From the NCBI GenBank assembly GCA_024508935.1, contig JANINW010000011.1:78255-142254 (forward strand): a stretch of 64,000 nt of DNA. Direction: 5' to 3'. The DNA comes from Flavipsychrobacter sp. GTDB taxonomy: Bacteria > Bacteroidota > Bacteroidia > Chitinophagales > Chitinophagaceae. Below are positions 43,481 through 49,162 of this stretch, in pieces (the stretch's first letter is position 1; the number at the start of each line of letters is the position of its first letter). A program made the translations under genes and the position numbers. The notes below the pieces were generated by a model that saw only the letters and a list, made by a program, of their open reading frames with translations, was not told where the DNA came from and did no database searches.

Positions 43481-44470
43481 TTATTGCTGCTGCAATGCTT
43501 CACGTATCCTGGCTTCTATTTCGGCGGCTACTTCAGGGTTGTCTGCAAGAAATTGTTTTACTGCATCACGGCCCTGGCCAATTTTATTATCGCCGTAGCT
43601 GAACCATGAACCGCTTTTTTGCAGTATACCCAGTTCTACGCCCATATCGATGATCTCACCTACCTTGCTGATACCCTCACCGAAGATAATATCAAATTCT
43701 ACCTGGCGGAAAGGAGGCGCCACTTTATTTTTTACCACTTTTACACGGGTACGGTTACCGCTGGCTACATCACCATCTTTTATCTGGCTTACACGGCGGA
43801 TATCAAGACGTACAGAAGCGTAGAATTTCAGTGCGTTACCACCTGTAGTTGTTTCCGGATTGCCAAACATTACACCTATTTTTTCGCGGAGCTGGTTGAT
43901 GAATATACAGCAGCAACCGGTACGGCTGATAGTGGCTGTGAGTTTACGCAATGCCTGGCTCATTAACCTTGCCTGCAAGCCCATTTTGCTGTCACCCATT
44001 TCACCTTCCAGTTCTCCCTTAGGCACCAGGGCAGCTACAGAGTCTATTACTACAACATCTACTGCTCCTGATGATATCAGGCGGTCGGCTATTTCCAAAC
44101 CTTGTTCACCATAGTCCGGCTGAGAGATGATCAGGTTATCTACATCTACACCCAGTTTGCGGGCATAGCTCGCGTCAAAAGCATGTTCCGCATCTATTAT
44201 GGCGCATATACCGCCTTTTTTCTGTGCTTCTGCAATAGTATGTATAGCTATAGTTGTTTTACCTGAAGATTCGGGGCCGTATATTTCTATGATACGTCCC
44301 ACGGGGAAACCGCCTACGCCCAAGGCTACATCCAGCCCAAGTGAGCCGGTACTTATCACATCTATCTTATCCTGTTGCTTGTCGCCCAGCATCATTACCG
44401 AGCCTTTACCATAATCCTTTTCGATCTTATCCAGTGCTAGTTTCAGCACTTTTAATTTGTCTTCTGCCAT
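43481..44470 (-). CDS. recA: Recombinase RecA
   Basis: A 329-residue RecA, forming ATP-dependent filaments on ssDNA for homologous recombination and SOS co-protease activity. Walker A is G65-PESSGKT-T73; MSQALRKLT and the loop following [10 protein letters not shown]-like [16 protein letters not shown] (L2) mark the DNA-binding region. The ORF track begins at 44530 with 20 codons unlike the family; the ATG at 44470 ([26 protein letters not shown]) is the conserved start. The upstream region carries a prominent inverted repeat. Downstream is a strong terminator. Confidence 0.96.
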
Positions 44471-44522
44471 TTGCTTAAGCTTTTGAAGTGTGTTAAATAT
44501 GATGCTAAGGTAAAACAAGATT

Positions 44523-44571
44523 TTGTACAAATGTGCAAATAGTTATCCACATTTGTATAGCCATTGTACAA
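44523..44571 (-). promoter_or_regulatory. Candidate operator region upstream of recA with a DnaA box
   Basis: Two TTGTACAA palindromes (44523-44530 and 44564-44571) flank a perfect 10-bp inverted repeat TACAAATGTG-N12-CACATTTGTA (44526-44535/44548-44557). An exact DnaA box TTATCCACA lies at 44543-44551. It is 53-101 bp upstream of the recA ATG, where an SOS-type repressor would be expected to bind. The binding protein is inferred, not seen. Confidence 0.6.
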
Positions 44572-44669: not shown

Positions 44670-45008
44670 TTAAAATGGCGCGTCATCATCTGGCCCGGCT
44701 TGACCCGGAGGAGGCATGCGGAACTGCGATGGTGGCGGAGGCATATCATCATCATCAAAATTATAGTCATTGGCCTTTGATGGCATAGTCTGGAAGCCGC
44801 CGGGGATGAACATTTTCGAACCACCGAATTCACCCGGGTCCCTGCGTATGCCTGCCTGCGGATTATCGCCTGCAGGTTTAAACCCGCCACTGCCGGCGCC
44901 AGGAGGAAACCCGCCGCCACTGCCAAAGCCACCATCGAATCCGAAATTATCGGCAGGAAGGTCTACGAATTTCTGGTATTCTTTTATGAAGCGCACTTTT
45001 ACTGTATC
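44670..45008 (-). pseudogene. dnaB: C-terminal part of dnaB in a different frame
   Basis: Read from 45008 the minus strand gives DTVKVRFIKEYQKFVDLPADNFG, which aligns with the last helicase-core strand of DnaB (GTVRLTF in E. coli). It is then followed by a Gly/Pro-rich tail of about 95 residues ending PGQAGPDDDAPF. The ORF track lists only its last 108 residues as if they were a separate protein starting MRFIKEYQKF. Its frame is offset from the upstream dnaB ORF, which stops at 44999. This makes it the displaced end of the same gene. Confidence 0.85.
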
Positions 45009-46333
45009 GGTACTACCGTTTCTCCCTCAATAGGCTGCCCCATTTCATCATTATTGATACCATAGTATTCCGGGCGGTAGAGGAACATAACCATATCAGC
45101 ATCCTGTTCAATGGCTCCCGATTCACGGAGGTCACTCAACTGCGGCACTTTACTTTCTTTACGGCTTTCTACCGAACGGTTCAACTGCGACAGGGCTATA
45201 ATAGGTATTTCCAGTTCTTTTGCCAGTGCTTTAAGATCGCGTGATATTTTAGATATTTCCTGCTCACGGTTACCTCCTTTGTCTATAGAAGCCTGCATCA
45301 GCTGCAGGTAGTCTATTATAATTAACTGAATATCATGTTTTTGCTTCAGGCGGCGTGCTTTGGCGCGCAGCTCAAAGATGTTCAGGGCCGCCTGGTCATC
45401 CAGGAAGATAGGGGCGGACGCCAGTTTATTCATGCGCTGGGTCATCTGCACAAATTCATGCTCCTGCATACGGCCTTTGGTAATGGCTTCCATGCTTACT
45501 TCCGTTACGGCTGCGAGCATCCTTTTTACCAGCTGTCCCGCACCCATTTCAAGAGAGAAGAAGGCAACCGGGAAAGGCTTGGCACTGTTCATAGATGCAT
45601 TCATGGCCAGGTTAAGACAGAAGGCTGTTTTACCCACCGCAGGACGGGCAGCCAGGATGATAAGATCCGTTTTCTGCCAGCCGGAAGTCAGTTTATCCAA
45701 AGGCACGTAGCCCGATGGAACGCCGGTCAGGTCATCCTTTTTATTTTTGGCTTCTTCTATCTCGTGTACGGTGCGCACCAGTACCTCTTTCAGGCTTTTG
45801 AAGTTCTTACGCAGGTGTTTATCAGTGATCTCGTACAGGTTTGATTCTGCCTTATCCAGCAGGTCGAATACGTCAGTGCTGTCTTCATAGGCATCGCCTA
45901 TTACCTGCCCGGATATGCGTATCAGCTCACGCTGGATGAATTTTTCCATTACAATACGCGCGTGGGCCTCAACGTGGGCACTCGATACTACGCTCATTGT
46001 GAGACGGGTAAGGTAATATGCACCGCCTACTATCTCCAATTCATCTGTTTTGCGTAGTTCTTCAGTCACAGTCAGCAAGTCTACCGGCATACCCTTATCG
46101 AAAAGGCGGCGGATAGCTGCATATATCTTTTGGTTAGCGTCTACATAAAAGCAGTCTGCGCTTTGAATGATCTCCAGTACCTCGGCCAGCTTATCCTTTT
46201 CCAGCATTACGGCACCCAGTACCGCTTCTTCCAGCTCGGGAGCCTGGGGTGGTACCTTGCCATAAACAAGGTTGGTTATATCTGGTTTCCTGCTACGTGT
46301 ATTGCCAAATTCTTTCTTGATGTTTAATGCCAT
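44999..46333 (-). CDS. dnaB: Replicative DNA helicase DnaB, frameshifted near the C-terminus
   Basis: 444 codons of DnaB, the 5'-3' replicative helicase. The N-terminal domain covers APELEEAVLGAVMLEKD...; Walker A is ARPAVGKTAF (about 219-228); Walker B is LIIIDYLQLM; the following SQLNRSVESR and LSDLRESGAIEQDADMVMFLYRPEYY are intact. It then reads ETVVPIQ and stops. In DnaB generally this point continues with roughly IIxGKxRNGPxGTVRL; that KxRNG segment carries the arginine finger. The segment is absent and the rest lies in the next frame (44670-45008). Either a sequence error or a broken gene; see findings. Confidence 0.9.
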   Translation of the reverse strand: MALNIKKEFGNTRSRKPDITNLVYGKVPPQAPELEEAVLGAVMLEKDKLAEVLEIIQSADCFYVDANQKIYAAIRRLFDKGMPVDLLTVTEELRKTDELEIVGGAYYLTRLTMSVVSSAHVEAHARIVMEKFIQRELIRISGQVIGDAYEDSTDVFDLLDKAESNLYEITDKHLRKNFKSLKEVLVRTVHEIEEAKNKKDDLTGVPSGYVPLDKLTSGWQKTDLIILAARPAVGKTAFCLNLAMNASMNSAKPFPVAFFSLEMGAGQLVKRMLAAVTEVSMEAITKGRMQEHEFVQMTQRMNKLASAPIFLDDQAALNIFELRAKARRLKQKHDIQLIIIDYLQLMQASIDKGGNREQEISKISRDLKALAKELEIPIIALSQLNRSVESRKESKVPQLSDLRESGAIEQDADMVMFLYRPEYYGINNDEMGQPIEGETVVPIQ

Positions 46334-46554
46334 CGTGGGTTAGTCTGTTATATATGTTGTATTTATGTCCCTTAATACTTCTCCCAGTACCGTTTTAACG
46401 GTTTAACCTTTACTTATCATTGCGGTAACAATTTCTTCATGTTAACCAAGGATTAAAAAAAGGTTAATGGAGCGTTGTAAAACCTAATGTAGTCTGAAAA
46501 ATGAAAGTGCAAACGCTTTGAAAAAACAAAACTTATAAATGTGATGCTCACCTC

Positions 46555-46604
46555 TTGTACACCAGTTTATCCCCATATCCTTATAGAAACAGTAGTATTG
46601 TACA
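46555..46604. promoter_or_regulatory. Paired TTGTACA sites resembling the recA upstream region
   Basis: TTGTACA at 46555-46561 and 46598-46604 (43-bp period, against 41 at recA) flank TTTATCCCCA and a TATAG, echoing the order seen upstream of recA. The similarity is partial and may be chance. Confidence 0.35.
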
Positions 46605-46698
46605 CAAAGTTAAGCATCAATACACAGGTATTTCACATAGTACCCACAATAAAATGTGTATAAAACTTTATAAGCCAGATTTTTGCAAAAGGATGCGA

Positions 46699-46733
46699 TT
46701 TGCTATAAACATGCCACGCTTGGGCTATCTTTA
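46699..46733 (+). promoter_or_regulatory. Possible promoter of pheT
   Basis: TTTG (46699-46702) and TATCTTTA (46726-46733) resemble the -33 and -7 elements with a 23-nt spacer; the final G of the -7 consensus is replaced by A. It lies 23 bp before the ATG. Confidence 0.4.
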
Positions 46734-46756
46734 CCACAAAATTCATTCAAAATTAG

Positions 46757-49162
46757 ATGATAATCTCGTACCAGTGGTTGCTCAATTACCTCCCGGAAGC
46801 GCTCCCGGTAGGCGATCTGGGCAATATTTTGACATCCATAGGCCTTGAAGTTGAAGCAATAGAACCGGCAGAAGCAGTAAAAGGAAGCCTTGCAGGGCTT
46901 GTGATAGGAGAGGTGCTCACCTGTGAGAAACACCCTAATGCGGATAAACTCAAAATTACAACAGTAAATATAGGCAACGGCCGGGAACCACTTCACATCG
47001 TATGCGGCGCACCCAATGTGGAAGCAGGTCAGCGGGTAGTAGTGGCACCGGTTGGCACCACAGTACATCCTACAGAAGGAGAAGCTTTTTTGATAAAAAG
47101 TGCCAAAATAAGGGGCGAGCAAAGTGAAGGGATGATCTGTGCCGAAGATGAGATTGGTCTTGGTAAGAGCCATGCTGGCATCATGATATTGCCCGCAGAT
47201 GCACCAATAGGCATGCCGGCAAAGGAATATTTTAAAATACCGGATGCTGACTTTGCAATACATATTGGTCTTACCCCCAATCGCAGCGATGCTATGAGCC
47301 ATATTGGTGTGGCCAGGGATGTGTGCGCCTATTTATCGCACCACCGGGGTGGAAAATATGCTGTGAATATGCCTGTAGTAAATATGCCGGCTATAGGTGA
47401 TAAGCAAATAGGTATAGCAATAAACATAGAAAACGCAGATGCATGTGCCAGGTACACAGGTATCAGCATAGCAGGCGTTAAAATAGCACCTTCCCCTGAA
47501 TGGCTGCAGCGAAGGCTGAATGCTATAGGCATTAGATCTATCAACAACGTGGTAGATATTACCAACTACGTATTACATGAATATGGCCAGCCATTGCATG
47601 CATTTGATGCAGATAAAATACAAGGGAATGCAATACATGTGAAATGCCTGCCGCAGGACACTAAATTCAACACACTGGATGATAAAGAGCGTAAGCTGAA
47701 TGATAATGACCTGATGATATGCGATGCGGTACATGGATTATGTATTGCAGGTGTGTTTGGTGGCGCGGGCAGTGGGGTGTCTGATACTACAACCAATATT
47801 TTCCTGGAGAGTGCTTATTTCGATGCTACCTATGTAAGGCGTACTTCTATGTTTCATGGGCTGCGTACGGATGCCGCTACTCATTTTGAAAAAGGCGTAG
47901 ACATCAATAATGTAGTGCCTGCGCTGAAACGTGCAGCAGCACTTATTGTTGAAATAGCCGGCGGACAAATAGCTTCGGAAATAAAAGATGTAGTGGCGCG
48001 CGAAATATCGCCTGTAAAAGTACATGCTACTTATAGTTATATCCATAAGCTGAGTGGTAAGAACTATGACAAAAAATCAATAAAAGAGATATTGGTTGCA
48101 TTGGGTTTTGTGGTAGAGGCTGAAACAGAAGAAGGGTTGACCCTGGCAGTACCATCTAATAAGACAGATGTAAAGCAACCGGCTGATATAGTAGAAGAAG
48201 TATTGAGGATAGACGGACTGGATAGTATTGAGATACCCGACAGGCTGAATATCAGCCTGAACAGGCCAATGCCCAATGACAGGGGAGAGCGGGATAAGAT
48301 AGCTAATACATTAAGCGCCACGGGCTTTAAAGAGATCGTTACCAATTCCATAGTAAACAGTAAGTATTATCCTGAGCGTACAGACCTTGTACGTATGCTC
48401 AACAGCCTTACGAGCGAACTGGATGTATTGCGTCCCTCTATGCTGGAAAGCGGCCTGGAGATCGTACAGTATAACTGCAATCGCCGGAATACAGACCTGG
48501 CGTTGTACGAGTTTGGTAAAACATATACTCTGGAAAATGGAGGTTATAAGGAACAAACACAACTAGCACTGTATGTGACTGGTGACGTAAGTTCTAAAAG
48601 CTGGAACCAGGTTCCGGGCACGGGAGATGTATATTATCTGAAAGGTATTATACAAAACCTGTTTGCATTAGGTGGTGTCAGCAAGGCAGCTATCAGCTAC
48701 GATGAGGATGGTACTAAATGGAAATGGAAGAACGAGGTATTGTGTGCTATTGAAGAAGTGCCGGCTAAAACACTGAATGCTTTTGATATAAAGCAGCCTG
48801 TTTATTTTGCGTATATCAATTGGGACTTGTGGCTGAAAGCGACTGCGGCAAACAAAATCCGCTACAACGAAGTGGCTAAGTTCCCGGCCGTGGAGCGCGA
48901 CCTTGCAGTGATATTGGATAAGTCAGTTACTTACCTGCAGGTACAGCAGGTGACTGACCAGCAAAAAATTGAATCATTAACTGGTTTTGGGTTGTTCGAT
49001 GTGTTTGAGAGTGAAAAACTTGGCGCAGGTAAGAAATCTTATGCATTGAATTACACATTCCAGTTACAAGACCGTACCTTAACAGATGGGGAAATAGAAC
49101 AGGTAATGACGCAATTGATGAATGCGTATAAAACTAAACTGCAAGCTCAAATTCGTGAATAA
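46757..49162 (+). CDS. pheT: Phenylalanyl-tRNA synthetase beta subunit
   Basis: An 801-residue PheRS beta chain (bacterial long form), partner of PheS in the alpha2-beta2 enzyme. The tRNA-binding EMAP-like domain (LVIGEVLTCEKHPNADKLKITTVNIG) is at residues about 40-150. The B3/B4 domain follows (VDITNYVLHEYGQPLHAFDADKI), then the B5 domain (KEILVALGFVVE), the core catalytic-like region, and a C-terminal FDX-ACB anticodon-binding domain (YNEVAKFPAVERDLAVILDKSVTYLQV). pheS is elsewhere, as usual in Bacteroidota. Its stop overlaps the next start (TAATG), implying translational coupling. Confidence 0.96.
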   Translation: MIISYQWLLNYLPEALPVGDLGNILTSIGLEVEAIEPAEAVKGSLAGLVIGEVLTCEKHPNADKLKITTVNIGNGREPLHIVCGAPNVEAGQRVVVAPVGTTVHPTEGEAFLIKSAKIRGEQSEGMICAEDEIGLGKSHAGIMILPADAPIGMPAKEYFKIPDADFAIHIGLTPNRSDAMSHIGVARDVCAYLSHHRGGKYAVNMPVVNMPAIGDKQIGIAINIENADACARYTGISIAGVKIAPSPEWLQRRLNAIGIRSINNVVDITNYVLHEYGQPLHAFDADKIQGNAIHVKCLPQDTKFNTLDDKERKLNDNDLMICDAVHGLCIAGVFGGAGSGVSDTTTNIFLESAYFDATYVRRTSMFHGLRTDAATHFEKGVDINNVVPALKRAAALIVEIAGGQIASEIKDVVAREISPVKVHATYSYIHKLSGKNYDKKSIKEILVALGFVVEAETEEGLTLAVPSNKTDVKQPADIVEEVLRIDGLDSIEIPDRLNISLNRPMPNDRGERDKIANTLSATGFKEIVTNSIVNSKYYPERTDLVRMLNSLTSELDVLRPSMLESGLEIVQYNCNRRNTDLALYEFGKTYTLENGGYKEQTQLALYVTGDVSSKSWNQVPGTGDVYYLKGIIQNLFALGGVSKAAISYDEDGTKWKWKNEVLCAIEEVPAKTLNAFDIKQPVYFAYINWDLWLKATAANKIRYNEVAKFPAVERDLAVILDKSVTYLQVQQVTDQQKIESLTGFGLFDVFESEKLGAGKKSYALNYTFQLQDRTLTDGEIEQVMTQLMNAYKTKLQAQIRE

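Follow-up and report, generated by a model that had tools for sequence, protein, structure and literature searches.

A predicted SOS operator, TGTACA-N2-TGTACA, at recA of Flavipsychrobacter and a probably coincidental TTGTACA pair between dnaB and pheT

SOS repressors repeatedly change their operator in evolution. The LexA boxes of cyanobacteria and Gram-positive bacteria, GTAC-N4-GTWC and GAAC-N4-GTTC, are bound by canonical LexA, which carries the PF01726 domain. The operators published for the non-canonical LexA of Bacteroidetes are CTAA-N5-TTAG, reported for Chitinophagaceae, and GGA-N5-TCC (Sanchez-Osuna et al. 2021, PMC8565304), and the published Bacteroidetes SOS networks name dinB, a phage-like repressor, a DNA-repair radical SAM protein (SplB), and topoisomerase IV (PMC8565304). 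In Elizabethkingia anophelis, a diverged LexA paralogue uses TTAC-AAATT-GTAA; under the published model, a diverged paralogue takes over the regulon with a new box, and the operator motif is treated as variable (PMC8565304). Since the motif is variable in that model, a missing CTAA box rules out the CTAA kind of operator but leaves membership of the repressor family untouched. PMC8565304 was the only paper our literature search found that joins LexA, SOS, and Chitinophagaceae, and the 14-mer described below was found in none of the papers searched, although Table S10 in the supplement of PMC8565304 might list it.

We analyzed a 64,000-nucleotide stretch of the genome of a Flavipsychrobacter sp. 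(contig JANINW010000011.1, positions 78,255 to 142,254), referred to here as the window. recA lies on the reverse strand (43481..44470; Pfam PF00154, E 7.7e-139) with its ATG at 44470, while the listed open reading frame (349 aa) begins at a TTG further upstream. Approximately 50 bp upstream of the ATG is a predicted SOS/LexA operator, TTTGTACAAATGTGCAAA (44522..44539, forward strand). Operator-like sites resembling TGTACA-N2-TGTACA were present in 13 of 13 recA promoters examined in the genus, commonly as TTTGTACAAATGTTTAAA or TTTGTACAAATGTGCAAA. The predicted SOS box is the 14-mer TGTACA-AA-TGTACA, two 6-bp palindromic half-sites 8 bp apart. A matrix was trained on 36 TGTACA-N2-TGTACA-type sites, with this genome and all recA sites left out. 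When the window was scanned with this matrix, the recA site ranked first of 63,983 positions at 25.0 bits, with the runner-up at 8.7 bits. Based on its sequence, we predict that the recA site is a genuine SOS operator.

Two further elements lie upstream. A weaker operator-like site, GCTATACAAATGTGGATA (44544..44561, reverse strand; 6.4 bits), overlaps TTATCCACA (44543-44551), and most genomes of the genus keep ACAAATGTGGATAA ahead of recA. A single TTGTACAA palindrome (44564..44571) lacks a partner half-site and had no high matrix score. As a single word, TTGTACAA was not enriched, with 113 copies in the genome versus roughly 90 estimated from base composition. An earlier note on this DNA had described two TTGTACA sites at recA around TTATCCACA and TATAG, and this layout is correct: TTGTACAA lies at 44523-44530 and 44564-44571 (period 41) around TTATCCACA. 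Its proposal of a two-site geometry, with TTGTACA words 38-46 bp apart, did not hold up; the functional unit would instead be TGTACA-N2-TGTACA, with half-sites 8 bp apart. Separately, TTATCCACA is a perfect DnaA box, and 9 of 13 genomes of the genus keep it beside the LexA-type recA operator (44543-44551 of the window; L167, L168, L172-L177).

The regulon was sampled by exact pattern search. Exact TGTACA-N2-TGTACA occurred at 44 places in 15 genus genomes, compared to 3 for the reversed control pattern. Sites with an AA/TT spacer were almost all intergenic, mostly no more than 300 bp from a gene start, and most sites with other spacers were inside genes. This genome has two exact places, one at the repressor gene and the other at a locus preceding imuA-imuB; allowing one mismatch added recA and a second imuA-imuB. 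Across the genus, the 14-mer preceded the repressor gene (10 genomes), imuA, dinB, the DNA-repair radical SAM gene TIGR03916, and a GyrB/ParE-type topoisomerase subunit gene. Further motif targets were phage or mobile-element genes, such as those for a terminase small subunit, DUF3987, and AAA_25 replication proteins.

Other features of these loci were also observed. The two imuA-imuB cassettes of this genome are on different contigs (L241, L254), both with a predicted SOS box. The predicted host box also lies on phage- or element-like replication and terminase genes (L258, L263, L277, L284, L266, L259, L271, L291). In five genomes, a family of approximately 110 aa (FSPKDARIIKDNEGKTPDELL; L269, L274, L278, L287, L289) carries a predicted SOS box at a distance of 35-39 bp from the start of the gene, on its upstream side; one member, L274, had no match in Pfam or PHROG.

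Two S24 proteins are encoded in this genome. L197 (247 aa, G000:C93:49763-50503) is a LexA-like S24 repressor whose own promoter carries TGTACAATTTATGTACAAGTGTACAA. Orthologues from the genus share 73-76% identity with it, most with the same kind of site upstream, and the lexA promoters of G009, G010, G011, and G014 contained no exact copy of the motif. The genus repressor has an S24 peptidase domain (PF00717, E 6.9e-09, residues 111-222). The motifs QAGY, GDSM, and MVKR were invariant in 7 of 7 aligned orthologues, placing the Ala-Gly cleavage site and the Ser-Lys dyad, and cleavage is predicted. Pfam reported no HTH_3 domain (PF01381) for the genus repressor, its alignment with a CTAA-type protein in BLASTP extends into the HTH, and the phrog_4 repressor family covers residues 13-218. 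No relatives were detected by sequence in the PDB at E <= 0.01. As for the non-canonical LexA of Bacteroidetes, predicted operators lie at the repressor's own gene, recA, and error-prone polymerase genes. The second S24 protein, L196 (G000:C26:5886-6377), is 64% identical to the LexA-like protein in its C-terminal half and different in its N-terminal half, possibly reflecting a domain swap.

The LexA-like S24 repressor most likely binds TTTGTACAAATGTACAAA as a dimer, with one subunit per TGTACA half-site, and would repress its own transcription along with that of recA, imuA-imuB, dinB, and further repair genes. Upon DNA damage, RecA filaments would promote self-cleavage of the repressor at the Ala-Gly bond, releasing the operators. 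Binding, repression, cleavage, and induction are expected by analogy with the repressor family. What we computed directly is how far the sites are conserved, where they lie, which genes they precede, the sequence features of the repressor, and how motif and repressor co-occur.

The closest kind of repressor so far described is the non-canonical LexA of Bacteroidetes. This predicted circuit resembles its CTAA-N5-TTAG group in having an S24 repressor with an Ala-Gly site, a Ser-Lys dyad, and a putative DNA-binding region at the N-terminus, in autoregulation, and in its targets, which include dinB-type polymerases, recA, a DNA-repair radical SAM protein, and topoisomerase IV (PMC8565304). Over 216 aa, the genus repressor shares 27% identity with an S24 protein of Chitinophagales that has CTAA-N5-TTAG in its promoter. 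It differs from that group in its operator, TGTACA-N2-TGTACA, and may differ in HTH_3: Pfam did not detect this domain here, but it was clear in the two scanned S24 proteins of other families that bear CTAA-N5-TTAG, and three CTAA-type S24 proteins gave HTH_3 scores of 33-60 bits. The E. anophelis paralogue is an earlier example of a repressor of this family whose motif diverged after paralogy, although it belongs to Weeksellaceae, recognizes another sequence, and keeps the 4-N5-4 geometry, while the sites described here are 6-bp palindromes 8 bp apart. TGTACA-N2-TGTACA also contains GTAC-N4-GTAC and has a half-site spacing similar to that of the cyanobacterial and Gram-positive boxes. However, unlike canonical LexA, the genus repressor had no PF01726 domain detectable by Pfam, and any such likeness would be convergent.

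Among 150 genomes of the family, the full-length repressor was confined to this genus and a single sister genus, with 73-74% identity for the copies outside this genome, and elsewhere among them the 14-mer occurred at chance level. Sister-genus lexA promoters carry TGTACA-type sites, and a dinB-like gene of G176 has the exact motif. CTAA-N5-TTAG was absent from recA and lexA promoters of the genus, where TGTACA-N2-TGTACA-type sites are found instead; it was visible by eye in the recA promoters of two other genera of the family (L181, L183) and lies before the S24 genes of G040, G042, and G043, which belong to other families of the order. A closer CTAA-type relative of the repressor (39-40% identity) was present in only 2 of 15 genus genomes, and was partial in one. 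In the simplest history, which follows the published model, control of the regulon would have passed to a diverged paralogue with a new box. We predict, from sequence comparison, that the LexA-like repressor controlling the SOS response in this genus and its sister genus has diverged and acts through a new SOS box in place of CTAA-N5-TTAG. TGTACA-N2-TGTACA appears to be a previously unreported SOS switch sequence, used by the genus instead of the published box of its relatives.

The spacer between dnaB and pheT compares poorly with these sites. dnaB, encoding the replicative helicase (44999..46333, reverse strand; Pfam PF03796 and PF00772), and pheT, encoding the phenylalanyl-tRNA synthetase beta chain (46757..49162, forward strand; PF03483, PF17759, and PF03147), are divergent. 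The earlier note had reported a TTGTACA pair with a 43-bp period here (46555-46604), and we confirmed it: the words lie on the forward strand at 46555-46561 and 46598-46604, around TTTATCCCCA (46566-46575) and a TATAG element. Single TTGTACA words were not enriched in the window (13 observed versus 11.95 expected). Same-strand pairs 38-46 bp apart numbered 3, with recA counted once per strand, compared to 0.015 in shuffles. Genome-wide, such pairs were seen at three places, recA, dnaB-pheT, and the second imuA on contig C28, while approximately 0.7 were expected by chance, which puts the dnaB-pheT pair within reach of chance.

Comparison with relatives pointed the same way. Twelve genomes of the genus, and many from elsewhere, share the divergent dnaB/pheT arrangement, yet TTGTACA was found in the spacer of 0 of 12 genus relatives with this layout, so the pairing lacks the conservation on which the earlier note had staked it. 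When aligned to relatives, the two words fall on AATCCAACAGTTTATCC and TTACCAACAAAGTTAC blocks, and so they look like lineage-specific substitutions. Each is a half-site without a partner that we judged non-functional, and the two conserved TGTACA-like half-sites 8 bp apart that mark the genus SOS operator were not found at dnaB-pheT. It is well supported that the pair is outside the SOS system. The pair at 46555/46598 would be an ordinary coincidence, specific to this lineage, in the DNA that separates two divergent promoters, those of dnaB and pheT. Of the shared regulator once proposed to act through TTGTACA-containing sites, what survives, with good support, concerns recA and other DNA-repair genes, not dnaB-pheT. 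Collectively, we consider it highly probable that the dnaB-pheT pair is coincidental and that the recA site is a genuine SOS operator under the LexA-like S24 repressor.

The true likeness of the two loci may be a TTATCCACA-type word, which 9 of 13 recA promoters of the genus keep, with related words clustering in the dnaB-pheT region of most relatives. The spacer has a predicted dnaB promoter of a presumed type (TTTG, 18 bp, TACATTAG; 46484..46513, reverse strand), whose element, CTAA[T/A]GTA when read on the forward strand, is conserved in nearly all 13 aligned genus genomes. A predicted pheT -7 element, TATCTTTAC (46726..46734, forward strand), was invariant in 13 of 13. Between the two promoters is a positionally conserved DnaA-box-like cluster (46567..46663), with TTATCCCCA at 46567-46575 on the forward strand and TTATACACA at 46655-46663 on the reverse strand. 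DnaA bound at TTATNCACA boxes in this cluster could tune dnaB, and perhaps pheT, with TTATCCACA at recA as a second target, which would explain the likeness noted between the loci. In support of this possibility, the dnaB-pheT spacers of 19 relatives held 17 copies of TTATNCACA, compared to 0.65 in shuffles (shuffle maximum, 4); conserved DnaA-box-like words were found in the window at 46567-46663 and in L007-L020 and L038-L044. The adjacency of TTATCCACA to the recA operator also fits. However, the region in this genome has a single exact TTATNCACA box, that of G004 has none, and the recA word overlaps an operator-like half-site. DnaA control of the spacer is therefore a tentative proposal, somewhat doubtful as it stands, and is compatible with the preferred explanation rather than exclusive of it. 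That replication and repair control are joined in the genus, with DnaA acting both at the conserved dnaB-pheT boxes and at TTATCCACA beside the recA LexA operator, seems unlikely, though the arrangement of these words would allow it. The DnaA-box-like cluster of dnaB-pheT sits far from the GC-skew origin.

Alternatively, the TGTACA-N2-TGTACA sites could belong to another regulator and precede SOS genes by chance. In its favour, several motif targets are mobile-element or phage-like genes, which, like the four lexA promoters without an exact copy, we counted against the preferred explanation. Opposing this idea, mobile elements commonly use host LexA boxes, most of the genus has the motif in the promoter of the LexA-like gene itself, motif and gene co-occur across genera, and the gene set is the SOS core, making a different regulator quite improbable. 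Similarly, the dnaB-pheT pair could be a real species-specific SOS-regulated site, in which case this species would induce dnaB or pheT on DNA damage. Pairs of this kind are rare by shuffling, with at least one in 5 of 400 window shuffles, and the second imuA of the same genome has a 41-bp TTGTACA pair. However, both dnaB-pheT words lack the partner half-site present at lexA, recA, and imuA sites. Compared to 25 bits at recA, the first word scored -3.3 bits (rank 275 in the window) and the second 4.3 bits (rank 19; shuffle p 0.19), no better than shuffled DNA; no dnaB-pheT spacer of a relative scored above background. We regard an SOS-regulated site here as very improbable, although a weak species-specific LexA contact at 46598, as its 4.3 bits might allow, is conceivable. 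That the spacer is the chromosomal replication origin (oriC), as a DnaA-box-like cluster between divergent genes beside the replicative helicase gene might suggest, is scarcely credible and was rejected on sampled GC skew, which places dnaB-pheT not at the skew minimum but on the terminus side in closed G004 (cumulative minimum near 3.1-3.3 Mb/0, maximum near 1.7 Mb, dnaB-pheT at 1.48 Mb) and in G006 (contig 2 maximum near 0.7 Mb, dnaB-pheT at 0.87 Mb).

Returning to the preferred explanation, in which a LexA-like S24 repressor acts at the recA operator, one Chitinophagaceae genus and its sister genus appear to have exchanged the published CTAA-N5-TTAG box for another, together with a diverged repressor, and to have mostly lost the old type of repressor. 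The old box is retained in neighbouring clades, which makes this a closely bracketed case for tracing operator replacement, and the new SOS box allows annotation of the SOS regulon in these genomes. If joint control by DnaA and LexA were true, recA would answer both to DNA damage, through the new SOS box, and to the level of DnaA.
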